Source: Halichondria panicea (taxonomy: Eukaryota; Porifera; Demospongiae; Suberitida; Halichondriidae). From it: a stretch of DNA of 64,000 bases. The stretch is from assembly GCF_963675165.1 (NCBI RefSeq), contig NC_087380.1:3711803-3775802 (forward strand), read 5' to 3'. Positions within the stretch are counted from its first letter, which is position 1. Every line of letters begins with the position of its first letter. Position numbers and translations under genes: made by a program. Positions 2,905-63,906 of this stretch are shown piece by piece. The notes under the pieces were generated by a model. It saw only the letters and a list, made by a program, of their open reading frames with translations, made no database searches and was not told where the DNA came from.

Positions 2905-5900
2905 ATGCCAAGAGCTAGACAAGCAAGAAAGGCTCCAGCAAAGTCGAAGACAGAAGAAAGCCCAGCACCAGTAGATCTAGATACATCTATCCCAAAGCGA
3001 CCTAAACTTCTGAGCTCAGGCAGCCCCAAGGATGAAGTGACCACCCCTACTAAGATAGTGGGCTCCAGGATGAGCCGAGCCAAACATAGCGGACTGCTGG
3101 CTAAAGATCAGGAGCCAAGGTAGAGACTTCTGATGCTGTTTTTTAATCGTTTAATGCACATCAATGTGTCATCCCACTACCCTCCTCCCCCCCATCCCCA
3201 GGATGGGTCGGGCTTATGGAACTCCGTTTGCGACAAAATTCAGGCAGAATGTGATAGGCGTGTGCATCCAATATAAAATCGATTTTTGAAGATCGATTTT
3301 TAATAATCGATTTTTTACAGTTGATTTTTGATTTACACGTGAACGATCTTTGACAATCGATCTGATAATCGATTTTTGAAATTTGATAATCGATTATTGA
3401 AATTCGATTTTTGATTTTTGATAATCGATTTTTAATAATCGATTATTGAAATTCGATTTTTGATAATCGATTTTAGAACTGCTCTGTGAAGGTGGGCTGG
3501 GGGGGCCCCTGTCTAAAGCTGTATCACGTGATACTATCCTTAGAGAAATTTTGCATTGAAGATGAAGCCACTATTCAATCATGACTTCTATTCTATCTGG
3601 AATCACCAAACTCTTTCTCAGCTCTTTCTCTAAGCACACACAAGATGGCCAAATAAAACAGTGCTGGCGAGAAAGCATGCAAAAATGGGTGCACGAAGAA
3701 ACAAAATAAGTAGCAACTGAACAGTTCTAAAATTAATGATTTTTACTGTGACTTATGGCTCTCCTTTTTAATGGATCCAAAAAACAATAAAGTTTCGCTC
3801 TTGCGTTATAGTCTATCATGTGAGATAGCTAACCAAGCCAAGCTTTGATTCCAGGCCGCGGAGAAGGAGTTTGTGCATGTTCTGAGTTTCAAGGGCGGCC
3901 TAACTGTAGCCTTGAATCCATTTTAATCGGCCTGGATTCGAGGCTAGTATCAATCAATTGGGATTTTTAAAAATCGATTATCAAAAATCGAATTTCAAAA
4001 ATCGATTATCAGATCGATTGTCAAAGATCGTTCACGTGTAAATCGAAAATCAACTGTAAAAAATCGATTATTAAAAATCGATCTTCAAAAATCGATTTTA
4101 TATTGGATGCACACGCCTATCACATTCTGCCTGAATTTTGTCGCAAACGGCGTTCCATACGGGCTAACATGGGGGATTTGACCATACCCTAGGTCAATTT
4201 CCCCTTGGTGGGGGAGGATTCTATTCAAATCCTCCATTTTGCCCCAGTCAACACTTTGAGTCCCAAGCAATTGCACTCATCAATTATAAAAGAAGTCTTG
4301 GCTAGGCTATGTGCAAGGCAAGGTCAAATCCCCCAGTACGGGGCCAAAATTTCAGATCAAATTTGTCCCCCTTGTGTCGGGAGGGGGGGAGTGAGGCAAC
4401 ACATTAGATCTAGAGATAGGAACAGAATAAGTATCGAAATAGAAATAATGCGCCCCAAAAAAATTATGTTTGCGAGACTACTGTACACAAAACAAATGTA
4501 TAATATAAGCAAAAATTAATGTCGAAGGGCGATATACCGTATAGCGGGAAATGTTCGTGAGGTGCAAAATTTCGCGTTTTAGGGCAGACAGTTAACGTGG
4601 AAAATTTAAACTAGGATAAACTCCCACGCACCAGTATTTTACATACAAAGCTATTGGTGGGTGTGGTTTCCTGGCATTGAAATGCGAACCTATGAACATT
4701 TTTGCTGAGAGCTCTGGAGCCAAATAGCGGAAAAAATTTCACCCGCGAAAATTTCCCGCTATACGGTATGTTACTCAATCATATCGCAATATATATATTA
4801 TGTTACTCAATTGTTGAGCAATAATTAATTTACTGGCCACATCTAGCAAGCTATGTGAGTTTTAGTATAAATACTTACCCTTGTCACCAACAGATCTGCC
4901 GTAAGCAAGCTCCTTATGAACACTCAGTCGCTCGCTCTCCTCACCTCTCCAGCGAATGAAGACGACATCACTCGATCCAAAATAGCCATGTCCGGCAAAA
5001 AGATGTACTCCTTCACCTCTCAGGCACAGATGGGAAAGAAAGGACTCACACCAAAATTGAAAGTGAGATTCGAAGATGAAAGTCGAGTGGACTCCCCTAC
5101 CGTTTCCAATGGTCATACTACCTCACTGATTGCGGCACATGAAGGAATACAGTGCAATCAGAGAGTAAAAAAGAGTGTCCTAGTGGCCAGAAGGAGTGAA
5201 TCGGATGTAAGCTCACCCAAAAAAGAAATGGACATTGTCAAAAAGAAAACCCCAGTGCGAACGCTTAGATCCAAGAAACAAAAAGCCTTAGAATCGAGTT
5301 CTGACGAAGAAGATGTATCAAAAACTAAGGCTCCGGCTAGACAGAAGTCCAAGAGGCAAAAACCTTTGGATACAAGCTCATCTGAAGAGGAGGCAGAGAT
5401 TAAAGAAACGAAGAAAATTCCCCTTCGAGTCACGCGGAGTTCCAAGAAGCTTGTGTCAGATTCCGAAAGTGAAGCTTCAGAATTAAGTGAAGACGAAGAA
5501 TTAGCAGCTCTTGCAGCCAAGCTGAATCGAGGGGAGGTCATTGGTCCAGCTGATGAGAATACATTGGAAGACTATTTCACTTCCCATTCTAGTAAAGCCG
5601 GTATGACTTCAGATCACACACTAGCAAAACTCGCTTGCCCCAAAATGGACCAGCGTTCTGTCCAAAATGCACTGGAAGCAACTTCCTCGACCTATAGAGA
5701 AGATTCGCAAGCACTTTACAAAGAATATACTTATCTATCTCCCTACTGGCTCCATGTACTGGCCAATGGATACAATGTGTTGCTGTATGGATTGGGCTCT
5801 AAGAAACGACTTTTGGATGATTTTCGAAACAAGCATTTGCAGACGTCTTGTCATTTTGTTGTCAACGGATTTTTTCCCGGTCTGACCATGAAACAAATTC

Positions 5901-6604
5901 TGAATACTCTCAGTTCAGATTTGCTCAAACATTCTGGATCGTTCAAAAGTCTGGTTGATCAAGTGACTTTTATTTGCAACGAGCTTGAAGACAGGAAGAA
6001 AGCCACTCCCGACCGAGGCCCTCCAAAGAAACTCTTTATCATAGTCCACAATATTGATGGTCCCATGCTTCGAGGAGGCAATGCTCAAACAGTGCTGAGT
6101 CTACTAGCACAATCACCAGCCATTCATATGTTAGCCTCCATCGATCACATCAATGCTCCACTAAACTGGGACCAGAGAAAACTCTCTAAGTTTAACTGGC
6201 TTTGGCACGATGCCACAACGTACGAATTCTACCGTGATGAAACGTCTTACGAGAACTCTCTCTTAGTGCAACAAAGTGGTAGTCTGGCTCTCAGCTCTCT
6301 GACGCACGTAGTTAAGAGTCTGACACCAAACGCTAGAGGCATCTTCGAACTATTGGTCAAATACCAGCTGGAACACAAGAGTGACCAGGGAGGGGTGTAT
6401 CTCGGTATGTCTTTCCACGATTGTTACCTCAAGTGTCGCGAGAAGTTTTTGGTCAATAGTGATATGACGTTGAGGGCTCAGTTGACAGAATTCAAAGATC
6501 ACAAATTGGTGCGATCAAGAAAAGGACAGGACGGAGTTGACTATCTTTTCATCCCCATTGACAGTGGCATACTCACAGAGTTCTTAGAACAACAAAAAGA
6601 TTGA
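2905..6604 (+). CDS. ORC2: Origin recognition complex subunit 2
   Basis: ORC2 is a subunit of the complex that marks replication origins. Two coding exons, 2905-3119 and 4894-6604, join in phase (AG+A) across a 1.8-kb intron to give about 641 residues, a little longer than vertebrate ORC2. The first ~280 residues are a charged, disordered tail with repeated SSSDEE/SSSEEE acidic clusters between lysine-rich stretches. The conserved AAA+-like domain follows, with YWLHVLANGYNVLLYGLGSK (the degenerate P-loop seen in ORC2), VVNGFFPG, the IVHNIDGPMLR Walker-B-like strand and LASIDHINAPLNWD. The C-terminal winged helix contains FHDCYLKCREKFLVNSD. The intron holds a fold-back transposon (3215-4159) and a MITE (4537-4766). 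An AATAAA lies near 6858. Confidence 0.96.
3215..4159. mobile_element. Fold-back element with ATCGATT-rich arms
   Basis: A 945-bp element in the ORC2 intron. Its two ends (TATGGAAC.. and ..GTTCCATA) are long inverted repeats: the left arm to about 3475 and the right arm from about 3960. Both arms carry many degenerate AATCGATTTTT units. The 6-bp string CGGGCT flanks both sides (3209-3214 and 4160-4165), consistent with a target duplication. The centre includes one end of the 53-kb family (CCTGGATTCGAGGCTAG near 3930). No coding potential seen. Confidence 0.8.
4537..4766. mobile_element. TA-flanked MITE, CCGTATAGCGGG ends
   Basis: Perfect terminal inverted repeats (CCGTATAGCGGGAAAT) flanked by TA on each side, in the ORC2 intron. 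It is related to the copy at 8176-8362. No open frame of note. Confidence 0.75.
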
Positions 6605-25373: not shown

Positions 25374-26411
25374 TTACAATCTCATCTCCGTGAACTTCAT
25401 AGTAGAGTAGTTTGGATCTCTTTGCGACTGGCTGAAGTTTCCTGAAGAACCAGGAAATATCGCTTGATTATCATTATTAAATAAATGGAGGATGGTTCCA
25501 GGCGAAATAAAGAAGATATCCAACTTGAGGGTTTCAGGACAATAGCGGGATGAGTGCCCATCCAGTAATAGTAACAGTGGTCGAGCAGCAGGTGCATACC
25601 GCAGAAAGTGGCATTTAAACCACCGGCAGAAGAGATGCTGGTTCATCCACCCGGAGTCACTCAGCCCATAAACTGAGCCTGGTATTTCTCCAACAGCTAA
25701 ACTTGGGGGCATTGTTTTTCGGGGCCAGACAATCCCACCTGCACTGACACAGCCTACAACTGTTATTTGAGCTTTATTGCCAGATGACACTGAGCAAGGG
25801 TTTTTTTCTCCACGGACAAAAACACCTTTTAGGGGCTTTGGGTCGAGAGGAAATCCTGATTCATCCATGTTGAAGATTAATGCGGCATCGTTAGTTAAGC
25901 CGTATTTCATCAAGATCTGTTCCAGCAAAGAATAGTAGAACTTCAAACTCTCTGGAGACGGTGCTTTTGCACGAGAAATAAAGAGAGAGGTTGCCATCTT
26001 CAATGTTAGAATGGTGTGGCGCCTACAAAAGCCTTGCCACCATCCATTTGATAGGTCATAAGGTATAAGGATTCGTTTGGTCACTACCTTCTGAGCCATT
26101 GCCAATACATCTTGTCGTGATTTTAGGTAGCCAATTTCACAACATTCAATGACAAATGACACTAGTTCTTCCTCTTCTTCTTCTGTTAATATAGTTGGAT
26201 GTCCACTTTTAGCACCAGGCAACACCCTCCCTATTTTGTGATCAAATAAAGTGGATTTAGGGATGCCGTACATTTGAGCAGCTTTACTCAAAGTCATTCC
26301 ACTGAATATTGCCTCAAGCGCAGTTCTCATTTTTCGTTCATCCCAATTGACTCTGTAATGTGCAGGCCTTGTCGATCTGGGTTTTGAGTGGGCAGGAACT
26401 GTATCAGGCAC
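25374..26411 (-). pseudogene. Pogo/Tigger-type DDE transposase, 3' damaged
   Basis: 345 codons. An HTH_psq-like region (SKAAQMYGIPKSTLFDH, residues ~42-58) and a CENP-B-like middle precede the DDE domain, with the first catalytic Asp in FNMDESGFPLDPKP (D183) and the second in LLLLDGHSSRY (D284). Compared with the copy at 46-47 kb, a short stretch is missing after SAGGIVW. The frame changes after residue ~300 (FFISPGTILH), so the third acidic residue and the C-terminus are lost. Probably inactive. Confidence 0.85.
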
Positions 26412-26414
26412 TGC

Positions 26415-27235
26415 TATACTAGCAAAAATCCGATCTCTAAATGGTCGATACTGCCGTTTAGACGGTGCTGGTGAAAAGAAGAGACATTATGATCAGATTA
26501 CAAAATTGCACATGTGGCCAAAAAATGGCGTTGCACATGTGGCCAACGTAGAGCATGCGCAGACTTAGATTTACTGACATACGTCATAAATATTTTTATG
26601 CAGCTATCACGTGGCTCAACTTATAATTTTTACACATCATGGAGCCTGTCAGTATATGGACGACATAAAAGCCATGATTATGGCTGTACAGAGAGATTTC
26701 TGCTGAATTGAAGCAACAATGCCCTCGGATTTTCAGCTCAAAGTGTAAGGAGATATGTTTCAAAAAAATAACCTAAAGGAAATATGCCAGGAGGACAAGA
26801 AGTTGTTGATGAATCAAGCGTATGGAATAAGTGTGCATGAATTAAGCTAATATGTGCAAGCTAATTATCCCAAGACTGGTCCACATATATGTGACAGGCC
26901 TAGAAAAGACATGCAGAGCAAACTTGTATTTAACATCAAATAAAGCAGTGTTTAATAATTGTCGTTGGATTAATCCGTCAAAATACGCCATCCTCGAATC
27001 AACTATTCTAATCATGACGAATCTAGTAAATTATAGTTGTTGTGCACTTTGTAATTGTTGTCCATCACAGTCGTATCATTTAATGTATAGATTAATTATA
27101 CAATCAAATTTTTACTGTACAAGTTATTTCTTTCCTTTTTTATGACAGCTAGGTAAAGCCAAATTTGCCTTTTAGAGCTTTCTTTATCTTGAGGCATGAC
27201 ATATGGAACCACTCTACCAACACTGTCACATCCAC
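26415..27235. other. Stretch without a recognised gene
   Basis: A 14-bp direct repeat, GCACATGTGGCCAA, occurs at about 26507 and 26534. The rest shows only short frames. Confidence 0.4.
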
Positions 27236-39801: not shown

Positions 39802-42533
39802 TTAAAAAATACTTTCTTTTTGTTTTGTTTCTATGGCCGGACGCTCTGAGGTAGCCTGGACATCTTGGGGGCTACTGGACTCTGTATAATACGCATGGAT
39901 ACAAGTGTGTGTGTGTGGGTGAATAAATTCATTCTTACTGTTCCGCGTTTTTTTCTACATGTACGTTTCAAATGGACAGGCACCTTCACCTCTGTTAAGG
40001 AGGGGATGTAAAAACAGGTATGTCCGAAAATAAACTCTTACCTGTTTCTGTGGCCGGACGTTCTGAGGTACATGTAGCCTGGACATCTTTGGGGCTACTG
40101 GACTCTGATACTTTTGATTCTGTATAATACGCATTGTGTGGGTGGGTGAAGAAATTCATTCTTACTGACGACGACAGTTCCATGTTTCTTTCTACATGTA
40201 CGTTTCAAGTGGACAGGCACCTTCACCTCTGTTAAGGAGGGGATGTAAAAACAGGTATGTCCGAAAATAAACTCTTACCTGTTTCTGTGGCCGGACGTTG
40301 TGAGGTACATGTAGCCTGGACATCTTGGGGGCTACTGGACTCTGATACTTTTGATTCTGTATAATACATATGGATACAAGTGTGTGTGTGTGTGTGGGTG
40401 GGTGAATAAATTCATTCTTACTGACGGCAGTCCCAAGGTTATTTTCAGCTTGAGTCTTAAACCTTGAGCCGGACTCTCTGTCTCTAAAGTAGGTGAACAT
40501 GTTGGGTTGCACATTAATTACAGTGTATATTGGTGTAAATTTCACTCACTTGGGTATGACACGAGAGGTTTCGTTTCAGTCGCCTTTTGCTCACCTGAAG
40601 GATAATGGGGGCATTATTACAAGAATATAACAATTTCTATACATATATATATATACACACGATGTAATGTAAGGTACCACGGTTTATGGTCATACTTTAT
40701 ACATGGACATGTACAACGTCATGCTTCTGAATCAGTTGCACACAAACATTATTTACACATACATACAATTCACTTACAACTGGGACATATCCATACAGTG
40801 GCCTCAAACTCGAACACATCATTTGGCACATCAACACAGCCAGGGTGAAACCACTCCAGACAAACATCACAGCTAGCCATTGGTTTAACCTCCGGACCTC
40901 GACACACACAATATAATTATGTCAAAACAAACCGACTTTATCACTCTTCGTCTGCTTTCCAACGCTTTTCTCGGAACTTTAGGAAAAGAAAATATTTCTT
41001 CCTTCTCAAAACATTCTAAAAGATGCGCTCGCATTTTGTCCTGTACCACCTTTTGGGTAAATGGATCTATGTCACAGCACAAATCATATGCCATTGATAT
41101 GGCAAAGAGGCCACAGTCAGCTCTACCAACTTGTGGGGTAACCCCAATCACATTAATAGTGATACTTGAGTACATGCTGTTTAGTGACCTGGTGGTACAA
41201 CAAGCTACCGTGCCGCCCTCATAAGGGATGGTATACATTGAGTCGAAAAGTTCAACTTCATTTCCAACACTGAATTTATTGGACAAACACGCCCAGTGTC
41301 CTGGTGCGATGAAAATGACTTGAACAAAATCTTGAGGAATTGAATTCCACTTATGCTTAGTGGCCAAATAGTGGGTGTCTTGTAGGCCATTTTGAAGTGG
41401 AAATTTTTTGCAGAAAAGGGTATTTGCTGCCGAGATGTGGTTAGCAGTCAATAGTCTACCATTACTCAGAATTTCTCTCTCAGCCATTGACAATCGCAGC
41501 TTGTGGACCCAGTTAGTAAATCTAGAAGTTATGATCATCTCTGAGTTATATACGCAAACTATACAAGTACTTTATAGCTAGAGCTATAATAATTATGTAG
41601 ATATAGCATGAGAATCCTCGTGTAATATATACAGGCACAAGCCTGAGGGCGAGTTGCCTGCATGTTGCACACAACACGAGGATTCTCATGCTATATGTGT
41701 TTCATATTACGACGTTATGCCTCGAGGCACTACCATGTATATAACACGGAAGGGACTGTATGATTTTTATTACACCCTTGTTACCATGACAATGTGATAT
41801 AAAGGATTCTAATCACCTACACATGTACTTGCATTTTGTTTCTACTATTTCCATAATTAATTTAGCCAATTTCTTATAATGGGATGTACACGTATTTACA
41901 AGGGATGAATATTATCATACCTTTAGCTTTGCTTCTTACTTGAGAACATGAATTGTCGTCGACAGATATCTTAACCTCTGTTAAGGAGGGAATGTAAAAT
42001 CATGATGTAATGTCGAAAATAAACTCTCACCTGTTTCTGTGGCCGGACGCTCCGATGAAGCTTGGAAATCTTGTGGGCTAGTGGGCAATTCTGACTCTGC
42101 AACAGGCATGGTTAGTACAACGAGTGTGTGTGTGGGTGTATAAATTCATCCTTACTGACAGTAGTCTCAAAACGCAAGTTGACAGGCGTCTCTACCTCTG
42201 TTAAAGAGGGAATGTAAAATCATGGTGTAATGTCTAAAATAAACTCTTACCCATTTCTGTGGACGGACGCTCCGATGAAGCTTGGAAATCTTGTGGGCTA
42301 GTGGGCAGTTCTGACTCTACAACAGGCATGGTTAGCACGAGTGTGTGTGTGGGTGTATAAATTCATCCTTACTGACAGTAGTCTCAAAACGCAAGTTGAC
42401 AGGCATCTCTACCTCTGTTAAAGAGGGAATGTAAAATCATGGTGTAATGTCCAAAATAAACTCTTACCCGTTTCTGTGGACGGACGCTCCGATGAAGCTT
42501 GGAAATCTTGGAGGCTAGTGGGCAGTTTTGACT
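39802..42533 (-). CDS. Ulp1-type cysteine protease with PHD finger and exon arrays
   Basis: The main exon (41538-40778) encodes a C48/Ulp1 protease domain: GHWACLSN with catalytic His81, LFDSMY with Asp99, TPQVGRADCG with the oxyanion Gln136 and nucleophile Cys142. A PHD finger follows (CVCRGPEVKP..CDVCLEWFHPGC..WICPS), completed to CPSC by the next exon (40594-40550). Protease and PHD are out of frame by one TG unit in a TGTGTGTG run at about 40905, so the copy may be broken. Small exons surround it with matching phases: upstream 42468-42533, 42373-42414, 42251-42316, 42156-42197, 42031-42096 and 41940-41977; downstream 40422-40481, 40279-40356, 40166-40228, 40042-40119 and last 39802-39881 with stop. 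The start codon upstream of 42533 was not identified. Ulp1 enzymes remove SUMO and PHD fingers read histone tails (family knowledge). Confidence 0.7.
39802..42533 (-). repeat. Alternating A/B exon array around the Ulp1 exon
   Basis: Type A exons encode E-V-(K/E)-(V/T/M)-P-V-(H/N)-L-(K/R) peptides; type B exons encode SSSPKDVQATCTSERPATET or LPTSPQDFQASSERPATET variants. Nearly all begin with 2 nt and end with 1 nt of a codon (phase 1-1), so they can be added or lost without shifting the frame. The surrounding intron pieces are duplicated too (GATGTAAAA.., GGTGTATAAATTCAT..), giving units of about 200 bp: three A/B pairs upstream and about three downstream of the protease exon. The last downstream A copy (about 39943-39991) has lost its phase. 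Confidence 0.75.
41605..41693. repeat. Small perfect-arm hairpin
   Basis: TAGCATGAGAATCCTCGTGT and its exact complement are separated by about 45 bp, in the gap upstream of the Ulp1 exon. Probably a tiny MITE. Confidence 0.8.
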
Positions 42534-42808: not shown

Positions 42809-45451
42809 CAGGGTGTCATACAGGATTTTGAAATAGGGGGGGGAAATCTGCGTGGCGGCGCTCGAGTACGGCACGCAGGGGGGTCCGGGGGCATGCTCCC
42901 CTAGAAATTGTTTGTGCTCTTGAGGTGAATTCTGGTGGGATTTTGGGGGTTTTAAATGGGTGTCAAAATGTGGTTTGTGGGTTTGTATTTTTCTATGTGC
43001 ATAAGTCAACAAAACATGCCATGTGCTCTTAAAAGTATACTCTTAAAGCTTAGACTTTGACCAAGACATGGATATTAGGAACTATTTATCTAATTCTCGT
43101 AAGAGATCACATAAAGAAGTTGCAAGTGACAGTGACAGTGACAGTGACAGTACTAGTGATAATGAAAGTGTAATGCCTGATCCCCGGTGTACCCAGCCTG
43201 CTCAGCTAGTACAATCGAAATCTGATAAGAAAAAGGCCTATAAGTCTAAGTTAACATACCGGCAACAATGGAAACTAAAATATTCCTGGATAGACTGCGC
43301 TAACGCAGAAATGGGTATGTTCTGTGTTATTTGTAAAAAGTATGGCAAACCACCTGGTAATGCCCGTGGAGCATGGACAACACGAGGAATTACAGATTGG
43401 AACCATGCGACTGAAATGCTTAAGCTGCACAATGATTCCAAATGGCACAAAGATGCAGCCATAACAGCCCAGATGGCACAACAGTCAGATCTAAGTGTAT
43501 TAGAGCTCCAAAATGCTGCGAGTGCCAGAGACACAAAGGAAAGAAAGAAGAAAAATCAAGCAATTATATTGAAACTTCTTTGTTCTATTTACTTTTTGAT
43601 TAAACATCGTATCCCCCACACCACTACTTTTAATGATTTGTTAGCTCTTCAAGTTGCAAATGGTGATGAACAACTAGCACATCACCTTGAACAATCCCCT
43701 GGAAATGCAATGTATACATCTAAGTTTTCGCTGACATCGCTAATAGAGGCCATTGCTACGTGGTTACGCCGAAAACTGTTGAAAAGTTTGAGAGAGAGCC
43801 CTTTTTTCTCTATTTTAGCAGATGAATGTGAAGACATCAGCACTCAAGAAGAGCTTTCGATTTGCTGCCGATGGATTGTAGACGGTCAAGCAGAGGAGCA
43901 CTTCATATCAGTCTTGCACGTTCTTGCTTGTGACGCTGAAACCATCACTGAGGCAATCGAGTCTTTCATTGCTTCAAGTGATCTTCAGTACCGAAAATTG
44001 GTTGGACAGGGTTATGATGGAGCTGCTGTATTTTCAGGATGCAGAAGTGGAGTACAAGTAAGAATGCGCACTCATGCTGCTCATGCTGTGCACGTTCACT
44101 GTGCATGCCATAGGCTACAGCTTGCAAGCATACAAGCAGCTAAGACTGTTCCAGAAATACAAAAAGTCTTTGGCATGATGGGTAACATATGGAAGTTGTT
44201 CTATTATTCCCCAAAGAAAATGCAAGCACTGAAAGAAGTACAAGCTGTTCTTGGATTGCCGGAATTGAAGGTGGTGAAACCAAGTGATACCCGTTGGCTT
44301 TCACACGAGCGATGTATGCGAGCAATTCGCAAAGAGCTGCCTGCTCTTATAACTACACTGCAACAGCTGTATGAGACAACAGGTGATGCGGAAGCTTTTG
44401 GCTTAAGTACACTTCTCTCTTGTTTTACTGGAGTAGCCAGTATCTGCTTTCTTTCCTACGTCCTTGACACTCTGGCAAAAATGATGTTGCCATGCAAAGG
44501 AAGGTGACTGACTTTAGCAAGTTAAAAATCATGTTGCAATTCACACGTGACGAGCTAAAGTCATTAAAGAGTGACACAGCTGATTGGTGTTGCATAACTA
44601 CATCTATGTTAGCTTCGCTGGAGACAGAGTATGGAATCGACATTGGAAGACACAGAACTGCATCTCCTCGATCAAAATTTGCAAAGATTAGCAGCATTGA
44701 AGAATACCTGTCACTCATTGGAATTCCTTACATTGACACTCTGCTAGGAAATATTGAGAGTCGGTTCTCAGATGGTGTGGTTAAATTGCTGGTTGCTACA
44801 TCTATTTTCAATCCTTCTCAACTACCAGCAGAAGGATTTTTATCTTCCTATGGTCTGCAAGAAATTAAGGAACTAGCTGACTTCTATGGCAATGCCGCTT
44901 CTGTAGAACATTGTGGTGAAACATATACATCACCACCCCTACTCGATCGAGAAGAACTGGTTTCTGAATGGAAATTTTTTAGGCGAGCTCTATGCAAAGA
45001 GAAAGAACTATTTGTACGTACTAATCAGACAACTCCTAGTATACAAGAGTTGTTGACATCAATGCAAGCATGTGACGCATACAAGGGTATCTTCCCAGAA
45101 ACCTTCAAGCTATTGTTATCATTTTGTCAATACCAGTTGGCACAGCAACAGTGGAGAGATCTTTTAGTCAGATGAAAATGATCAAGACGCGGTTGAGGAA
45201 CCGGTTGTCTGATATGAATTTGTGTCGATTAATGTTGATAGCTGTGGAGGGGCCAGAACAGAGCAGTGTGCCATTTGAAGAGATACTAGATGTTTTTAAA
45301 GAAAAAAACAGACGTATTGAACTTTAGTTATTTCTGTCCATTTTGCATATAATTATACATTTTCTCTGGTTAACTGGATGAAAAAAAGGGGGGGAGAAAT
45401 TTGAGCTAGGGGGGGGGGATATCCCCCCTTTCCCCCCTGTATGACACCCTG
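42809..45451 (+). mobile_element. hAT element inserted in the RING gene
   Basis: The ends CAGGGTGTCATACAGG and CCTGTATGACACCCTG are exact inverted repeats. ACTAT is duplicated at 42804-42808 and 45452-45456 (5 bp). It carries a transposase in plus orientation. Its right border falls inside the last exon of the minus-strand RING gene. A short derivative lies at 61656-62083. Confidence 0.88.
43068..45327 (+). pseudogene. hAT transposase (ZNF862-like), two frameshifts
   Basis: Three consecutive open frames, 43068-44507, 44492-45175 and 45124-45327, lie in three different phases. The first has an acidic (SD)n stretch, a TTF/BED-like zinc finger (FCVICKKYGKPPG..H..H), SPFFSILADECEDIS with the first catalytic Asp, and GYDGAAVFSG with the second; HVHCACHRLQLA follows. 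The second covers the insertion domain. The third holds the C-terminal dimerisation motif VPVGTATVERSFSQMK and TRLRNRLSD. Both breaks are short, so the element decayed recently. Confidence 0.88.
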
Positions 45452-51130: not shown

Positions 51131-52430
51131 TAAAAGGGTGCTATTTTGTTCAGTTTCACCATCACCTGTGCCATGCTGGGTCGATGGCTGGGCTCTCTCT
51201 TAGTGCAGTGGAGTATCAGCTCGTACACTGCCTCTGTACTTGAAAAATCATGTCTCGATAATGTTCAGTACAAGGGAATCGACTAGCGGTCACCTCACAG
51301 AGGACAATACCGTAGCTGTACACATCAATCTTGACAGACTGTTTCAGAGGGGGAGTGAGAAGATCAAAGGCTTGAGGGATGACTTCAGGAGGAGGGGAGT
51401 AGATTATGGCCCCCTCTCCTATCGTATGAGCATGCTGCAGGAAGTTGGCTGAGCCGACGTCAGATACCTTCCCCTTCCACTGGTGGTTGGACATTCGCTG
51501 GAGGAGGACGTTTGGGGCACTTACATCACGGTGGATGATGGGATCGTAGCGCTGGTGCAGGTAGTCCAGAGCTAAGGCAATGTCCATGAAGATCGAGAGA
51601 CGGTTTCCTGGGTCCAGTTGATTTCTCTCGTACGCTTGTCGGAGATTCATGTCCAAAAGCTCGGTGATGATGAGAGGAGGGGATCGATTCTCTCGGTTTT
51701 GATCATTAAAAATAGCACCAATGAATTGCACGAGGTTTGGGTGTCGCACTTCAGCCAATAGCCTCATTTCTCTCTCCATTTTCTCAATGTGAATTGGGTA
51801 GGCAATTTTTTCATGTAGTCGCTTGATAGCCACGCTCACTGTTCCCTCCAGCACCTCCCCCCACCCTCCTTCGCCAATCCTCCTGCCAATTAACACTCTG
51901 TTGGCTAGAATCCTCCACACCTCTGTTTTGTGTGCGGCCAACTCTTTTGTCTTGCCTTCTAACTCACTCACTAGAGCTGTGATTCGAGCAGACAAGTCAG
52001 CTTCTCTTCTGTTGGCCTCAGCCAATTCACGATCTTTCACTCGTAAAAGTAATTGTGTAGCTTGCTCTCTTTGCTCTGCCAGCTGTGCTCTTTCCTCCGC
52101 ATCTCCATGACGACGGTTAGCCTCAATCAAATGTTGATTTTTTCTAGCCAATTCATGATCTTTCTCTTGCAATTGTAGTTGGTGGCGATGTTCTGTGTCG
52201 TGCTCTCTCTGCTCTGCTGGTCGTAACTGTTGTTCCAGATCTAGAGCCCTCACCCGGCTGGTCTCACTGATTGATGAGGCATGAGCAGTTGCTCGTCTAA
52301 TCTTCTTCTCACTCAGTCACTGGGCGGAGCCTCTAGTGTCGTTGTGGGCCACATTCATGAGAGCCCACTTCCCAGCCGAGGTTTCAGCAACAGACGCTGA
52401 GGGTCCAGTCAACTCTGCATGTAGGGAGGG
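51131..52430 (-). pseudogene. Coiled-coil TKL-type protein kinase, damaged
   Basis: An upstream exon (about 52415-52325: ELTGPSASVAETSAGKWALM) runs to an in-frame TGA, after which the frame is open to 51216. A heptad-rich coiled coil (EQQLRPAEQREHDTEH.., about 100 residues) precedes the kinase: GEGGWGEV glycine loop, VAIK lysine, RHPNLVQFIGA, HRDVSAPNVLL catalytic loop, DVG in place of DFG, SPPPE in place of APE, and KIDVYSYGIVLCE. A frameshift at about 51225 removes the last helix, which continues in another frame as AVYELILHC and PSHRPSMAQVM to a TAA at 51131. The family layout is typical of large sponge TKL expansions (memory). With one stop and one frameshift it is probably a pseudogene, though sequencing error is possible. 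Confidence 0.7.
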
Positions 52431-57324: not shown

Positions 57325-57870
57325 GTGCGTAGCGCGAGGGACTGGCAAACTGCCTATCAGTCACTCGTCTCAGCTGCAACGAGCATTGCAGCCTATCAGA
57401 TTGCTCAACGTCATATTAGCCCGTAATTTTAACAGCACATACACTTCAGGGGATTCAGTGCATTCCATAGCAGCTAAATCTCATAGCAAAATATAACCGT
57501 ATTATCTATAATAATATTCATGTTTAGTAGTGTCATACAATCTATTACACTTCCGCTGAGACGAGTGACTGATAGGCAGTTTGCCAGTCGCTCGCGCTCG
57601 GGCGGCTGTCGCCGCCAGTCTACAGTAAAGTTATGTAGCTCGAGTTATGGCTAGTTTGACCTAGACTGGCGGCGACAGCCCCTCGCGTAGCGCGAGGGAC
57701 TGGCAAACTGTCTATCAGTCACTCGTCTCAGCTGCAACGAGCATTGCAGCCTATCAGATTGCTCAACGTCATATTAGCCCTGTTATTGTAACCGCACTTA
57801 CACTTCAGGGGATTCAGTGCATTCCATAGTAGCTAAATCCTCATAGCAAAATTTAACCACATTATCTATA
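57325..57870. repeat. Inverted/direct repeat cassette
   Basis: Two direct copies of about 190 bp (57325-57520 and 57685-57870; shared GACTGGCAAACTG(C/T)CTATCA and ACTTCAGGGGATTCAGTGCA) flank an inverted piece at 57549-57620, in which GACTGGCGGCGACAG pairs with its complement near 57620. It abuts the stop of the transposase gene and could be an element end. Confidence 0.75.
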
Positions 57871-57906
57871 ACGATATTCTAGTAATAATGGAAAAAACAA
57901 CAGCAA

Positions 57907-60900
57907 TTAGTTTCTACAAAATGTACAGGCCCAGGGAACTACAACTTGTGTGGTTTCCCTGCAACAGTGCTTATGGAACCAGGCTTTACAGTTTTTGCAC
58001 TTCACCATCGATTGTTTATCTTTGGGTTCTCGACATAAACAAGCAATTTCAACCTGCTTTGAAAATTTAACCCTGTTTCGGCACCTACGAATTCCTGTGC
58101 TAAATGTGGTAAGCTTGCAGTCTTCAAGGCACCTGGCAAGATGAGATCGAATAGAAACTGTGTTGCCAAATTTCTGGATACATGGATCTCTATGGCAGCA
58201 GAGTTCGAAAGCGATAGCAATCGCAAGCACACCACAGTCTGATCCATTTGACTGCCTCTGAACATCCATCATATTGATGGATAGTGTGGGCGTTGAACAG
58301 GAGACAAGGCTACATACAACCCGTACGGTGATATTCGAAGGTCTAGCAAATATCGTGTCATACACATTCACCGTACCTTCGTCACAGCCCACATTCGATA
58401 CAACACACCAGTGACTGTTACCAACAATGATAATTTGCACAAAGATCTGATCCTTGTGACAATCGAAGGCCTGACGCTGTGCAAGCGTAGGTGGTTGCAA
58501 TCCCTCCATCAAAGGAGAGTGCTGTAGCATTAATAGCTGAGCAGCAGTGATGACCCTGTCATTGAGCCAACCACAAGAAGATACTACCTCTTCCTTTTCT
58601 GCGATGGTTAATTTGTATAAACAGTTCTCCATCCATACTTTTTCACTTGTAGCAGCTGTGGTAGGGCCATCATCTTCGGAAATGTCTACAACGACAGGTT
58701 TGGGAATGACACACTTGCACTTAGCAAGGCAGGCAGCTTCAAGGGCGGCAGCAGCCAAAGAGATTTTTGGAGAAGTGCGCCAATTCCCTAGTGAAAGGCT
58801 GTGGTTACTGTCACTCAAAGAAATTGTCAACACTTCTGGGGAATAGCTTGCGTTAAGAATACCACCGCCACAATACAACCGAAAAAGATTGCCTACTTTT
58901 TTAGCAATCCGACAGAGAAGGTGTTGCTCTCCAAAACGACTGCTGTGAAGATAAACGTACATGCCAACCTCTAGCCTGTCCGTCTTGTCTAGATTACTGC
59001 CAAGTAGATTACCACAATCTGTGTTCACACCCGATGGCGGTTCGTTGATGTGGGGTTGTGTTGCATTGGTTCGATCGTTGATTTGTGGTTCGGGTTGTGG
59101 TTCGGGTTGCGCTGCATTGGTTCGATCGTTGATGTGTGGTTCGCTGATGTGTTTGTGAGCTGTTGTCAAAGTATTGCAATTGCATTCACTGACATGCTCG
59201 TCTGGAATCTCATGGTCACTATGTGCATCACCATCAGAAGTGACAAAATTATGCTCATCTGGGACACCATCGTAACACTCTACGTCTGAGTCATCACTAT
59301 CAGTAGTGACAACATCATGCTCGTCTGGGACACCGTCGTAACACTCTATGTCTGAGTCATCACCATCAGGAGTGCCGTATGTGTCACGTCCATGTTGGTC
59401 TGTCCAGAGAATGCGTTGCTGTCGATCTATCACTCTTAGCTTCTTCAGCTGCACTCGTCGTTTTTTGGTCTTTTCTGTTTTGACTCCGTCAAGTACTTTC
59501 TTCCTCTGTTGATTTTGCTTGGACAACACCTCTTGTACACCTTCGTACAATGGTAGATTCAGTTTTTTGTAGAGCTCGGTTTTCCAGTGATAGTCAGCCC
59601 CCTGTTGTTGATACTCGTGTGTCATGTTGGCTTGCAATAGGCCGAGGTTGGTTGAGACAATGTAATGGAGCCTCTCTAAGAATACGTGCTTTTGTCTAAA
59701 TCGTATCAGAACACTGTGTGAACTCTCGAGCCAATTGGAGTGGCCACGCTTCAGGATGGGGTGGACTAGCTTGTCGGCCATTTTTGTTCTCGTCAGGCAC
59801 TCAATTTTGTATGCTAGTAGGTGAAAGGGGCAACGTAATACCTCTTTCGTACGATACAGTTTCCCTTCACACTCGTGGTGATTTTTATCGGCACACTCGC
59901 CGCAGTTACATAGTGTAAGGGGGTGAAAGTCACACTGTCGAGCAACCACTCCGTCAGATTCGAACTCGCATTCTTTACAGGTGGTTAGATAGTGTTTTTC
60001 ACATGTTTGTTCTTCCTCCCATTGGTGCTCATCCTGTACGTGGTGTGTTAGATGACTGAGTCGTCTTGAGAAGTCAGAGGCAGACTCGCAGGTCGACAGT
60101 ATGGTGGAGAAGCTATTTCTCGAACGCTGGCAGAACACGTCTGTCAGACATCCGCATCCTGCCTTACAATTTTTGGATTTGCAGTGACACTCGACATTAA
60201 CAACTTCTGGAAAAAATTTTTTCTCCCTGTCTTGTAGTGCGGCAGTGAACTTCTTTTGCTTGCCTCGAACCATCAGTAGCTTGAGGTGAGACTTTGCAGC
60301 ATGACCTCCGCACAACATGATTTTGGCACCGGGAAACACTTCTAAGACACGTTTGCTCGAAGAAGAGTCGCCATCTTGCCAGTGGACTTCAATGTTCAAA
60401 CCCTCTGTGCGTGCCACATTCATCAATTGTGTTGCACTGTACCCTTCAGTTGACTTAGATGTGCCTTTGTACAGCGGTTCTTCGATGATGTGGTCTCGGC
60501 CTTTTTGGCACAGATGTATAAAATATAGCAGTGCTCCGTTGAAGTAGTTTCGTATGGTGAATGTGGAATTTTTGCTAAAGAAACCACGCGTGTGCCAGAC
60601 ACCATCGGCAGTAGTAACAGCTCGTGTCCATGATCCGAGTTGTTCCTGGCTCATGTTTTTCATTCTTTCTTTCTCTCTTGAGCACATTTCCTCGACCATT
60701 TCCTCCACTACAGGGTGCATATCCCTTATAGTTTGCATAAATGTCGGAAAGGACACTGCCGCCATGCCAAGGATATCAAGCACCTTCCTGTATGTTGCAT
60801 GTGTGCATCCTGCTGTAATGAAGGCCACCTGTAGTGCCCTGCTGAGTTTGCTCTGTCTGGTTGTGGGGTGATCCGGAAGAATGGCACTGTCAAAAGTATA

Positions 60901-61188
60901 ATACTTTGAGCATCTCTTGCATCTATAGATTATTCGTGCCGCTCCTCCCATTTGCTGAGTTCTCGCTTCAACAGGAATAAGCCCTCCACGGCAGCCCGTT
61001 CTTTTGCAGCCTCTGCTGACCTTTTGAATGAAGCTGTCCACCTGTCGCATCTCTGCGATTGTGCAATTGTTTGGAATATCTGGTAAAGCGGGCAGCTTGA
61101 TTTTAAACTGTCGTAGTGGTGTTGGAAAGTACTCCGATTCTCTGTCTGACCCGGTATCGGTATCGGTATCGGTTGAAGTCATCAATAC
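57907..61188 (-). CDS. Mutator-like transposase fused to Ulp1 protease and PHD finger
   Basis: A single open frame of about 1,091 codons from ATG at 61182 (position numbers below count the preceding TTG as 1). Layout: acidic TDTDTD start; an N-terminal zinc ribbon-like CX4C..CX2C (60-92); transposase core with TTADGVWHTRGFFSKN (Asp194), HWQDGDSSS (Asp271/273) and RGHSNWLESSH (Glu487); a cysteine-rich insert between them (ECHCKSKNCKAGCGC at 332-346, then CKEC, CNCGEC); a low-complexity linker with two YDGVPDEH repeats (600-725); a C48/Ulp1 domain (CGWLND 871, His925 in SHWCVV, Asp943 in VYDT, Cys984 in SDCGVLA); and a PHD finger (CLCREPKDKQ..CKNC..WFHKHCC..CTFC, 1049-1090). The frame is intact. 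An acceptor (TCAATCAG) at 61189 makes it a possible 3' exon of the acidic exons at 62141-63906 (all phase 0). It would act in the nucleus; the transposase family name is from memory. Confidence 0.85.
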   Translation of the reverse strand, partial: VLMTSTDTDTDTGSDRESEYFPTPLRQFKIKLPALPDIPNNCTIAEMRQVDSFIQKVSRGCKRTGCRGGLIPVEARTQQMGGAARIIYRCKRCSKYYTFDSAILPDHPTTRQSKLSRALQVAFITAGCTHATYRKVLDILGMAAVSFPTFMQTIRDMHPVVEEMVEEMCSREKERMKNMSQEQLGSWTRAVTTADGVWHTRGFFSKNSTFTIRNYFNGALLYFIHLCQKGRDHIIEEPLYKGTSKSTEGYSATQLMNVARTEGLNIEVHWQDGDSSSSKRVLEVFPGAKIMLCGGHAAKSHLKLLMVRGKQKKFTAALQDREKKFFPEVVNVECHCKSKNCKAGCGCLTDVFCQRSRNSFSTILSTCESASDFSRRLSHLTHHVQDEHQWEEEQTCEKHYLTTCKECEFESDGVVARQCDFHPLTLCNCGECADKNHHECEGKLYRTKEVLRCPFHLLAYKIECLTRTKMADKLVHPILKRGHSNWLESSHSVLIRFRQKHVFLERLHYIVSTNLGLLQANMTHEYQQQGADYHWKTELYKKLNLPLYEGVQEVLSKQNQQRKKVLDGVKTEKTKKRRVQLKKLRVIDRQQRILWTDQHGRDTYGTPDGDDSDIECYDGVPDEHDVVTTDSDDSDVECYDGVPDEHNFVTSDGDAHSDHEIPDEHVSECNCNTLTTAHKHISEPHINDRTNAAQPEPQPEPQINDRTNATQPHINEPPSGVNTDCGNLLGSNLDKTDRLEVGMYVYLHSSRFGEQHLLCRIAKKVGNLFRLYCGGGILNASYSPEVLTISLSDSNHSLSLGNWRTSPKISLAAAALEAACLAKCKCVIPKPVVVDISEDDGPTTAATSEKVWMENCLYKLTIAEKEEVVSSCGWLNDRVITAAQLLMLQHSPLMEGLQPPTLAQRQAFDCHKDQIFVQIIIVGNSHWCVVSNVGCDEGTVNVYDTIFARPSNITVRVVCSLVSCSTPTLSINMMDVQRQSNGSDCGVLAIAIAFELCCHRDPCIQKFGNTVSIRSHLARCLEDCKLTTFSTGIRRCRNRVKFSKQVEIACLCREPKDKQSMVKCKNCKAWFHKHCCRETTQVVVPWACTFCRN

Positions 61189-62140
61189 CTGATTGAAAGT
61201 ACATATAGAAGAATAGTAAGTGTACTTAAAAATGTGTCATAAAAAAGGTGTCCCATTGTTGGTCGACTAGCCCTTTGCGTGGCCTATGCATTTGCTTACC
61301 TTTGTTTCATACTGACGTGTATACTGACGTGTTCTTTTTGGTGTATACACAGGTTTTGAGCTATACGGTTCTGTGAGCCTTTCCGGTCCCGTGTTTGCGC
61401 ATCCCTGAGAGGTAATGTACATATACGTGTTTATATGGTGCTTTTATATATGTATAATTATACATGTAGCTGGCACGTTGCTTTATATTGGCGTACACTG
61501 GTAAATCTGCTAGCATGCATAATTGTTGCTAAAAAGGATGTCTATATAAATTAATGGCTGCTGCTCTCATAAAACAGTGCAGTTAAAGTGCAGAAGTAAC
61601 TAGAGTAGCAACACTCTATCTAACCCTAACCCTAACTCTTATATTCGAGTAAGCCCAGGGTGCCATACAGCGGGGAAGGGAGGATATCCCCCTGGCTCCA
61701 TTTTTCCCCTTTCTATCATACATTTAGATGTATGATTGTATATATGGACAAAAATACTAGCACTGTCACTGTCACTGTCATCTACGTGATCTCTTACGAG
61801 ACAATTAAATAGTCCATATCTAAATTATAGGTCAAGGTCTAAGAGCACATGGTATGTTTTGCTGACTCATGCACATAGAAAAATATAAACTCAATTTTAA
61901 CACCCATCCATTTAGAATCGGACCCCCCATTTAAAATACGAAAGGCAACCCCAAAACCCACCAGAATTTACCCAAAAAATTCTGAGGGAGCATTCCCCCA
62001 GATCTTCTTAGGCGACGGTGCACTTTGCGCACCGCCACATTTCCCCCTCCTACATGTACTTCAAAATCCTGTATATCACCCTGACTAAGCCAGTTTCTAC
62101 AGTATGATTTGTTGTTTAATTATATCTGGCGTTATCTTAC
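61189..62140. other. Gap or intron between acidic exons and transposase frame
   Basis: Holds a partial R1 remnant (ATTGTTGCTAAAAAGGATG, TAGAGTAGCAACACTC; about 61520-61615), CCCTAA repeats (about 61620) and the hAT derivative at 61656-62083. No coding sequence. Confidence 0.6.
61656..62083 (-). mobile_element. Internally deleted derivative of the hAT element
   Basis: The ends CAGGGTG(C/T)(C/A)ATACAG match those at 42809-45451. Inside, only the 5' part of the transposase (including CACTGTCACTGTCACTGTC, complement of its (SD)n codons, and the leader) remains, in reverse orientation. The flanks AGTAAGCC (61648-61655) and ACTAAGCC (62084-62091) match at 7 of 8 positions. Confidence 0.8.
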
Positions 62141-63906
62141 CTCTGCTCCCTGCATTTTGTGCAGGCTTGGTTTGGGTGTGACTTGAATGCTTTGTCTTGG
62201 AGTTGATTGTAAATCGGACTCCTGTTGCTCCTAAGCAAGAGTGAATAACATCAAATTTGCCTGGACTGTACATGATGTGCTGCATTTATCTATGTGAGTA
62301 CATACACGTAGTAAATGTGTATAATATTATATATAATAGGATCGTTTACTCAGCTTGTGTTGTTTACCTTCTCCAGATCAGTGGCGTCTTTTTGAGAGAG
62401 GCTGTCGTCAATTTCCTCCTCCTGAAAGTCAAAGTAATGGTTGCATGTACATGTATGGTGTTTGCTGATTAGTTTAGGATTACCCTATACAACAACATAA
62501 TTATATTACATAATTATTGTCTGTACAATTATATGCAACCCTGTTGTGTATATGTATTTGTAATCCTACAAAGATACACTTGAGTTTCATACTGTGATTA
62601 CAAATGTTCTTGCACCTGTTTCAGGCAAGAATCTTCATCTGAATCTTCATATGGAGTGAGGCTGTGGGTAGGACTCTGCGACAGGAGGTCAAAGGCACTC
62701 TCCTCCTGGGTAACACATTGCACTATTCGATAGCATACGTACGTACTACACTAGTACACGTTGCCAATGTGTGCATAACCACATTATCTTTAAGTCTAGA
62801 CCTGTATAATTATAGTCTCGTCGCCAAGCCAATTTTTTGAGAAATAGGCCTGAGATAGATTGTATCTGGGCATGTCTATGTGTAAAACATGCTCCTATTA
62901 ATTGAGTAAGTCATTGCAATCACATGACATGTACGTGGAATACGATTCGTTCTAATTTTCTGTAAAGATGCACGTAACTTTCATACTGTGATTTATTTAC
63001 CTGTTTCAGGTCAGAATCCTCCTCTGAACTGAGGCTGTGGTTAGAACTCGGCCACGGGTCGAAGGCACTCTCCTGTGAAGGTGAGTAAGTCCTTGCAATT
63101 ACATGACATGTACGATCCGTTTTAAATTTCTATGTATACCGTATATGTGACAGGCGGGGAAATCAATATAATTATAAGTATCTACAGTCCTTCTACTACC
63201 TCTCTGTAAAATCTGATGCCCTCAAATAAAACAGCCCATATTCAGTGCAATAGAGCTACTCGTATAACCTCAGTTAAATTTGAGGCTACATGAGGTATAT
63301 ACGTATAGTGCTTTTATGAAAGATTTTCTCATGGCAGAATTTGAGTTTGTGCAGGTGAAAATTACTTACGATGACCAAGTACATACCAACAAATGCTGTG
63401 ACGTTAATCCCTAGTACATGTACATGTATAATAGTTGTGTGTGCTACAGGGTTAGGACTGAAAGATTGATTCAATTTGAATTGTAAAGGGTTGAGGTGTT
63501 AGTAAACGCCTCTCTCGAATTGTATACCGTAAACGTTGAAATTTTCGACGGGTGTTTAATTTCGTTTTTTTGTCCTTGGACTCAACGCACGAAATTAAAT
63601 ATATACGTGGGTGTACGTGTACGTGGTAGCCACACCTATGTTAATATAACGGACGAAAATTTATGCGCACGAAATTTAAGAATTGTGGGCCTAGTGCAGA
63701 AAGTGCGAAATTTTGATGCGTCGAAAATTTCAACGTTTACGGTAGCTTACTCTGCCAGCAAAATGAAACATTTAGTAGCCAGCAGCCTCTGATCAAGCAT
63801 ATACTGCACAAGACTTTTATACCCTGATTGCATAATTTACCTGTTTCAGGTCAGAATCCTCCTCTGAACTGAGGTTGTGGTTAGAACTCTGCGACCGACC
63901 CTCCTC
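62141..63906 (-). CDS. Acidic repeated exons (possible N-terminus of the transposase gene)
   Basis: Five exons with good borders, all phase 0: 63841-63906, 63001-63072, 62616-62705, 62368-62421 and 62141-62230. The first three share the peptide S-(N/T)-H-(S/N)-L-(S/T)-x-x-E-(D/E)-D-S-D-x(2-4)-LKQ and the intron-border sequence ACCTGTTTCAGG, so they are tandem exon duplicates. The last encodes EQQESDLQSTPRQSIQV.. and ends at GTAAGA. The next in-phase acceptor downstream is at 61189, leading into the transposase-Ulp1-PHD frame. The beginning lies beyond the right edge. No known domain. Confidence 0.6.
63527..63742. mobile_element. TA-flanked MITE, CCGTAAACGTTGAAATTTTC ends
   Basis: Near-perfect inverted ends of about 25 bp with TA on both sides, 216 bp, in an intron of the acidic-exon gene. 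Same CCGTA terminal group as the MITEs at 4.5-9.2 kb. Confidence 0.75.

Follow-up and report, generated by a model that had tools for sequence, protein, structure and literature searches.

The 64,000-nucleotide stretch of the Halichondria panicea genome (131 Mb) analyzed here, contig C4:3711803-3775802, referred to as the window, carries on its minus strand what is almost certainly the gene of a large DNA transposon of the Mutator-like element (MULE) type, a candidate Rehavkus-type element, as judged from the predicted protein. The open frame at 57907-61236 (-), 1109 amino acids from stop to stop, combines a transposase of the DDE class with a protease of the Ulp1 type and a PHD finger, and is contained at 100% identity in the 1336-amino acid NCBI protein LOC135335416 isoform X2 (P0001). 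The overall explanation that we regard as fairly probable is that of a Mutator-like transposon gene in which PHD docking and SUMO stripping would aid the movement of the element. Two parts of this system deserve the attention of specialists: the exchange of the protease for an OTU-type enzyme among relatives, and an array of acidic exons upstream of the transposase.

The window protein was compared with its relatives, a set of 83 proteins that includes its own and in which many are fragments. Alignment A1 consists of 24 rows, the window protein and 23 long proteins picked from the 83 by length. The parts of the protein are listed below, with the Met at 61182 taken as residue 1.

59698 to 60621, minus strand: RNase H-like DDE core with D193 (60604-60606), D270 (60373-60375), C291, H294 and E486 (59725-59727)
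58978 to 59388, minus strand: low-confidence acidic linker containing a 66-nt tandem repeat at 59226-59374; its main part has 32 D/E and 3 K/R
58813 to 58965, minus strand: small beta-rich domain preceding the protease, residues 740-790, from the structure model and conserved A1 positions
58669 to 58695, minus strand: SUMO-interaction-like motif VVVDISEDD, residues 830-838, by a pattern written after the alignment had been seen
58120 to 58638, minus strand: Ulp1/C48 protease domain with H924, D942, Q977 and C983
57913 to 58047, minus strand: PHD finger (C4HC3) with the invariant Trp1068

The Pfam family PF20700 (Mutator-like transposase) matches residues 69-359 with an E value of 8.9e-13 and 48.3 bits against a cut-off of 26.5, and this hidden Markov model (HMM) search places the N-terminal part inside a transposase family, as the original prediction on this DNA had proposed. 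The hallmark of Mutator-like transposases is a DDE triad with a C..H pair between the second D and the E. The window protein has this arrangement, and D193, D270, C291 and E486 are identical in all 24 rows of A1, with H294 present in 23 rows and replaced by a gap in one. The AlphaFold2 model, with a mean predicted local distance difference test (pLDDT) score of 69.7 and a poorly modeled linker and PHD finger, has the strand-helix order of RNase H and puts the three acidic residues where they would be expected. The solved structure that Foldseek ranked best for the core is the ISCth4 transposase (PDB 6xg8; E 5.6e-6, TM-score on the target (TMt) 0.51, root-mean-square deviation 9.5). ISCth4 is presumably a bacterial enzyme of the IS256 family, which is related to Mutator, and to our knowledge it has no C-terminal protease or PHD finger. 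Kolobok, Zisupton/KDZ and Ginger identities were set aside on Pfam and fold; a search of the window protein for a Ginger1-type core gave no rve or H2C2 match at E<=1 in Pfam.

In the C-terminal part, the H-D-Q-C residues of Ulp1/C48 proteases (H924, D942, Q977 and C983) are identical in all rows of A1, and the best Foldseek match is the yeast Ulp1-Smt3 structure (1euv; E 9.5e-6, TMt 0.60), which agrees with the Ulp1 fold. The PHD finger has the C4HC3 ligands, each conserved in 23 or 24 of the 24 rows and the His in all of them, together with the cage tryptophan W1068, which is present in every row. Its best matches are weak and consist of Dido1, PHF2 and Spp1 (E 0.004-0.009), PHD fingers whose ligand is histone H3 trimethylated at lysine 4 (H3K4me3). 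The prediction of one uninterrupted frame with a D-D-E core, a Ulp1 triad and a PHD finger is therefore borne out by the frame and by the conservation of the catalytic and ligand residues; the catalytic residues that it had named as 925, 943 and 984 are the conserved H, D and C, but these numbers are one too high when the Met at 61182 is counted as residue 1.

Immediately before the Ulp1 domain, a pattern resembling a SUMO-interaction motif (SIM), with a hydrophobic core followed by acidic residues or Ser, was scored in a sample of 88 proteins. This pattern, drawn post hoc from A1, occurs in 36 of the 51 proteins with a scorable segment, compared to a mean of 11.7 (maximum 19 in 500 runs) for shuffled segments and a mean of 3.9 (maximum 9) for random segments of the same proteins. 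Variants in other proteins include VIDLTED and IVISSASEEEN. The SIM-like motif, the invariant PHD tryptophan and the weak PHD matches are hints only at SUMO removal and histone reading, the activities by which, according to the original prediction, the element may choose or open target chromatin.

Eleven coding exons were mapped, and their translation reproduces LOC135335416 isoform X2, a predicted gene model, letter for letter. All eleven have lengths divisible by 3 and AG/GT borders, except for the start of the first and the stop of the last. Four exons lie beyond the window edge at 64006-65162, and the following seven lie inside the window.

63841 to 63906, minus strand: exon E1, phase 0, acidic, duplicate family
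63001 to 63072, minus strand: exon E2, phase 0, acidic, duplicate family
62616 to 62705, minus strand: exon E3, phase 0, acidic, duplicate family
62368 to 62421, minus strand: exon E4, phase 0, acidic
62141 to 62230, minus strand: exon E5, phase 0
61300 to 61404, minus strand: exon E6, phase 0 (GCANTGPERL...QYETK), 97% in copy C2a
57907 to 61188, minus strand: last long coding exon E7 (transposase, linker, Ulp1 and PHD), with the acceptor AG just before 61188 and an ATG at 61182

The original prediction had described five upstream phase-0 exons, and all five are right, but E6 was absent from its list. The phase-0 acceptor that it had placed at 61189 is reproduced in the splicing of the gene model to the exact NCBI protein. 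Exons E1-E3, which had been called clear duplicates, are indeed diverged copies of one another, with 77% identity over 48 nt and with one pair at 95% over 61 nt. Exons E1-E4 encode 28 D/E and 6 K/R, and the whole 243-amino acid N-terminus has 49 acidic and 26 basic residues. The copy of the gene on contig C2 (C2a) keeps E1-E7 with the same splice contexts and with peptides that are 95-100% identical. Exons of the E1-E3 type number four in the window copy (one of them upstream of those in the model), likewise four in C2a, three in C11b and a single one in C14, which carries an internal deletion; C11a has approximately five, the start of one being broken. The suggestion of an extendable acidic N-terminus fits, since the number of these exons varies between copies. 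A 151-amino acid query covering the array from exon N4 to E5 matched 24 places genome-wide, some of them through the N4 exon only, and all of these places are at transposase-match loci. Because of this distribution and the conservation of the splice contexts, the acidic array most likely belongs to the transposon's own gene. It is probably a flexible, phosphorylatable tail and not a catalytic part. At 63525-63744, the intron that separates E1 from E2 holds a short element whose 26-bp inverted repeats are perfect, and C2a runs continuously across this site.

The C2a copy has an open frame that is 97% identical to that of the window over 1047 aligned codons, with a nonsynonymous divergence (dN) of 0.013 and a synonymous divergence (dS) of 0.031, values which indicate that the transposon family moved or duplicated recently. 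The ratio dN/dS between the two copies is approximately 0.4 (NG86) or 0.6 (YN00). The copies on C2 and C14 have 96-97% amino acid identity to the window copy, and the C14 pieces contain stops. In the linker, the window copy has acidic 22-amino acid repeats and is without approximately 121 residues of C2a that bear zinc-knuckle-like CxCG...H...C motifs, which are also found in the A1 consensus.

Mutator-like elements have terminal inverted repeats (TIRs) and an 8-11 bp target-site duplication (TSD). The search for further genomic copies, which had been proposed as a way to define the element ends, did find copies on other contigs, but it did not yield the ends of the window copy. The match of the window copy to C2a and C14 extends 23 bp beyond the stop codon, to 57884, and stops close to the following feature.

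57327 to 57879, no strand: inverted and direct repeats, beginning approximately 5 bp beyond the match edge at 57884

On the upstream side, the match to other copies is gapped, reaches approximately 7 kb beyond the window and passes two minisatellites located 5′ of the gene, with units of about 47-49 bp and 14 copies. Several candidate termini were considered. The common 3′ edge ...CCATGATTTGC was rejected as a TIR because its last 50 bp or so start a dispersed repeat of approximately 600 bp that runs past the edge. The palindrome AACCTACC...GGTAGGTT, which has a 9-bp center in other copies, is unsupported as two termini around a TSD, since the window copy, whose 5′ match edge lies at this palindrome, keeps the 9 bp beside unrelated upstream DNA. 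A sister family, with core pieces 41-50% identical to the window core, has a terminus of approximately 80 bp that matches both ends of one locus approximately 12.6 kb apart (C3:4064660 and C3:4077229); no clear 9-bp TSD was seen by eye at the sister-family ends that were inspected. This terminus was also tried as the TIR of the element's own stretch, where it has no match, and the window holds only a 13-bp chance match to it. Sister-element copies at C2:3.32 Mb and C2:8.60 Mb (L022 and L023) are approximately 100% identical over 15 kb and differ by a 226-bp stretch that is present in only one of them. A segment of approximately 820 bp beside the common 3′ edge has opposite orientations in C2a and C14 (L011/L012 vs L013/L014).

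The relatives of the window protein differ in the type of protease that they carry. With Pfam at E<=0.01, OTU is recognized in 3, C48 in 39 and PHD in 51 of the 83 proteins. A search directed at OTU brought in P0084 and P0085, resulting in five OTU-type transposases (P0052, P0080, P0082, P0084 and P0085). It also returned three Pif1-helicase proteins (P0086-P0088), for two of which the precomputed Pfam column lists OTU; OTU-bearing Helitrons were already known (PMC2836005). Of the five OTU-type transposases, P0052, P0082 and P0084 have a PHD-type finger (PHD or PHD-1st_NSD), which stands before the protease, whereas in Ulp1-type proteins the PHD finger stands after it. The finger of P0082 is ING-type (1.7e-19 to ING4). 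Matches to the SIM pattern are scattered in four of the five OTU-type relatives, and the pattern is therefore not exclusive to Ulp1.

Of the 83 proteins, 71 had a large enough part of the core for the first tree, and in 29 of these neither protease was recognized. For a second tree, 73 rows were labeled by a looser pattern, and dropping 28 unlabeled rows left 45 (39 Ulp1 and 6 OTU), with the sixth OTU row, P0048, labeled from its linker alone. OTU rows occur at three places on the core tree, and P0082, P0084 and P0085 stand beside the Ulp1-type P0026 with an SH-like approximate likelihood ratio (SH-aLRT) support of 99. The cores of P0026 and P0082 are 56% identical. A tree forcing the six OTU rows together was rejected by the approximately unbiased test (p-AU 3.3e-83 on the 45 rows, a value obtained with the first tree already in view). 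The three changes of protease label may represent perhaps one gain and two losses; P0080 is a long branch, and its placement is uncertain.

The C-terminal unit is also found on other transposases. The last 260 amino acids of the window protein match at least 147 places in the genome, many of them short, and three of these were followed in more detail. At L047, 62-3505 (-), a single 1148-amino acid frame combines a P-element-type transposase (PF12017, E 1.5e-5) with C48 (2e-6) and PHD (4e-4, below cut-off), the finger being nearest to ING2 (2.1e-5). At L048, 1-2268 (-), and L051, 250-1072 (-), upstream integrase pieces (H2C2 1.3e-15; rve 0.0019, below cut-off) are followed by a last frame with C48 (0.004) and PHD (0.002), an arrangement that, by its domains, fits Ginger1. 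L049 has C48 (0.006) and PHD (9e-8) only. It is conceivable, and we take it seriously without leaning towards it, that a cassette of a reader and a deconjugating protease (SIM-Ulp1-PHD, or PHD with OTU) is a portable accessory that has been repeatedly acquired and exchanged by unrelated transposases (Mutator-like, P-element-like and integrase-like), and that the alternation of SUMO and ubiquitin types inside one transposase family would mean that selection favors clearing ubiquitin-like tags locally from active chromatin. If so, eukaryotic transposition would commonly include such tag removal, as a step against silencing or towards target access.

The mechanism that we propose for the window element is held tentatively and with some doubt. 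The PHD finger would dock the transposase on active chromatin marked with H3K4me3, the SIM-like motif would bind SUMO, and the Ulp1 domain would strip SUMO from nearby silencing or repair factors, or from the transposase itself, letting excision or integration proceed. In the OTU-type relatives, ubiquitin would be removed instead of SUMO. The proposal builds on the observation that DDE transposases repeatedly occur together with cysteine proteases of the ubiquitin-like type, often with a PHD finger as well, and its strongest argument is the alternation of SUMO-type and ubiquitin-type enzymes on related cores, both here and in Ginger1. The exchange of OTU for Ulp1 hints that stripping tags from chromatin helps such elements to move. 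Related pairs such as the Ulp1-type P0026 and the OTU-type P0082 could be used in domain swaps that test the idea of SUMO or ubiquitin removal put forward by Bao et al. in 2010.

A number of observations weigh against this reading. Among the 83 proteins, no more than 3, one of them P0001, match PF20700 at E<=0.01 (four further proteins carry it in the precomputed Pfam column), and the rows of A1 were picked for length. The HMM search that had been proposed for the protease and the finger did match both, but below the curated cut-offs: C48 has an E value of 0.006 and 16.9 bits against 20.7, and PHD has 0.0018 and 18.7 bits against 24. These two predicted identities are carried by residue conservation, that of C48 also by Foldseek. 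P0083, which is outside A1, has Asn at the position of the Ulp1 Asp. Den1-Nedd8, XopD and OtDUB match the protease fold as well, and SUMO is not discriminated from NEDD8 or ubiquitin. The PHD part of the AlphaFold2 model is of low confidence, and the aromatic cage looks incomplete because residue 1047, before the first Cys, is Ala in the window protein where 20 of 24 rows have His. For the SIM-like pattern, apart from its post hoc origin, at least two of the 36 matches are off the aligned motif (P0022 and P0037), and those of P0039 and P0063 are in doubtful segments. The pattern matches only three (L047, L049 and L053) of eight Ulp1 loci outside the family; L048, L052 and L056 do not match and show VIDV or IDLT, while in L054 and L055 the frame opens just before the match. 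L049 and L053 appear to be a single family, as do L048 and L056. P0080 and P0085 have no PHD at E<=0.1 in Pfam. Finally, no TIR, TSD or element end of the window copy was found by its comparison with copies C2a, C14, C17 and C15.

It is unlikely, in our judgment, that the targets of the protease are limited to the transposase or to partners in the repair step, which it would activate or stabilize with no role in chromatin. This explanation agrees with the alternation of Ulp1 and OTU on related DDE cores and with the activation of repair factors that Bao et al. discuss for Ginger1 (PMC2836005), and the two OTU-type proteins in which Pfam recognizes no PHD indicate that the chromatin reader is not always present. 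However, the frequency of the PHD finger among the 83 relatives (51) and among the OTU-type proteins (three of five) points to chromatin and not to repair alone. We consider it improbable that LOC135335416 arose by domestication of a transposase and was kept by the host for a chromatin function. In favor of this are the intact frame with its NCBI gene model, a 3′ match to other copies that goes little beyond the stop codon, and the lack of the zinc-knuckle linker; but a 97% identical copy with an open frame exists on C2, its dS of 0.03 is that of a young copy, and the dN/dS values given above indicate weak constraint.

Still less probable is the explanation that the acidic exons come from another transcript and were joined to the transposase by gene prediction only. 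The joining of the exons is known here from the gene model alone, and the first NCBI exon, N1, is whole in the window copy only. Against this stand the splice contexts and frame kept by seven exons in C2a, the restriction of the array to transposase loci, and the sister-family protein P0042, which starts with a related N-terminus. Under the favored explanation of a Mutator-like transposon gene, the window offers a sponge example in which growth of the exon array would be a source of variation in the N-terminus of the transposase.

Other features of the window include a second Ulp1-like frame at 40885-41571 (-), which has 32% identity to the Ulp1 part, an HW...DCG pattern and no Pfam match at E<=0.1; below approximately 40880, in another frame, Cys-rich PHD-like residues seem by eye to follow. 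A DUF4371 frame at 43047-44507 (+) (1.2e-11) is presumably of the kind found in hAT-type transposase relatives, and the piece at 25374-26486 (-), with HTH_psq (4.6e-10) and weaker DDE_1 and HTH_Tnp_Tc5 matches, is one that we take to be a Pogo/Tigger-like transposase. An ORC2-like gene is present in one frame at 4871-6604 (+) (PF04084, 3.6e-79), and a protein kinase-like frame at 51216-52316 (-) (PF00069, 3.3e-25).

The novelty that the original prediction had implied for the combination of transposase, Ulp1 and PHD does not hold, since Ulp1 and PHD domains of Mutator transposases are already in print. In the available part of their paper, Bao, Kapitonov and Jurka (2010, PMC2836005) describe Ulp1-encoding Mutator transposons from hydra, lancelet and plants, and the legend of Fig. 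1e names an alignment in which the Ulp1 and PHD domains are those of Ginger1 and Mutator transposases. The hydra and lancelet elements resemble the window element in having a Mutator-type transposase with a C-terminal Ulp1; their description in that part of the paper, by which they are known here, makes no mention of an acidic array, a SIM-like motif or an OTU exchange. The plant MULEs (Arabidopsis, maize, melon and rice), likened by description, share the MULE and Ulp1 combination, with PHD unstated in the same text. Each Ginger1 transposase is described there as carrying OTU or Ulp1, with one carrying neither, and the proposed roles are in transposition and repair, including the activation of repair factors. 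Ginger1 is thus similar to the window family in its OTU-or-Ulp1 C-terminus, and PHD is present in one of its tabulated families, but its core is a Gypsy-type integrase while that of the window is Mutator-type (PMC2836005).

Rehavkus elements, according to the accessible sections of PMC6446971, have a PHD finger, a 9-bp TSD, a TIR of 26-400 bp and a minisatellite before the 3′ TIR, and the text of that paper contains no words beginning with Ulp1, C48, SUMO or peptidase. The window element is similar in its MULE-like transposase with a PHD finger and in the presence of minisatellites, but its two 47-49 bp arrays lie 5′ of the gene, and its host is a sponge whereas the hosts named for Rehavkus are arthropods and annelids (PMC6446971). 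Searches of the open-licence papers in PMC, a scope that leaves aside subscription papers and Repbase Reports, turned up neither a Mutator-type transposase described with OTU nor a description of a SUMO-interaction motif next to Ulp1. In comparison with these known systems, the additions made here, as predicted from sequence, are the presence of OTU in place of Ulp1 in five relatives, the SIM-like motif, and the Ulp1-PHD unit on transposases of the P-element and integrase types.

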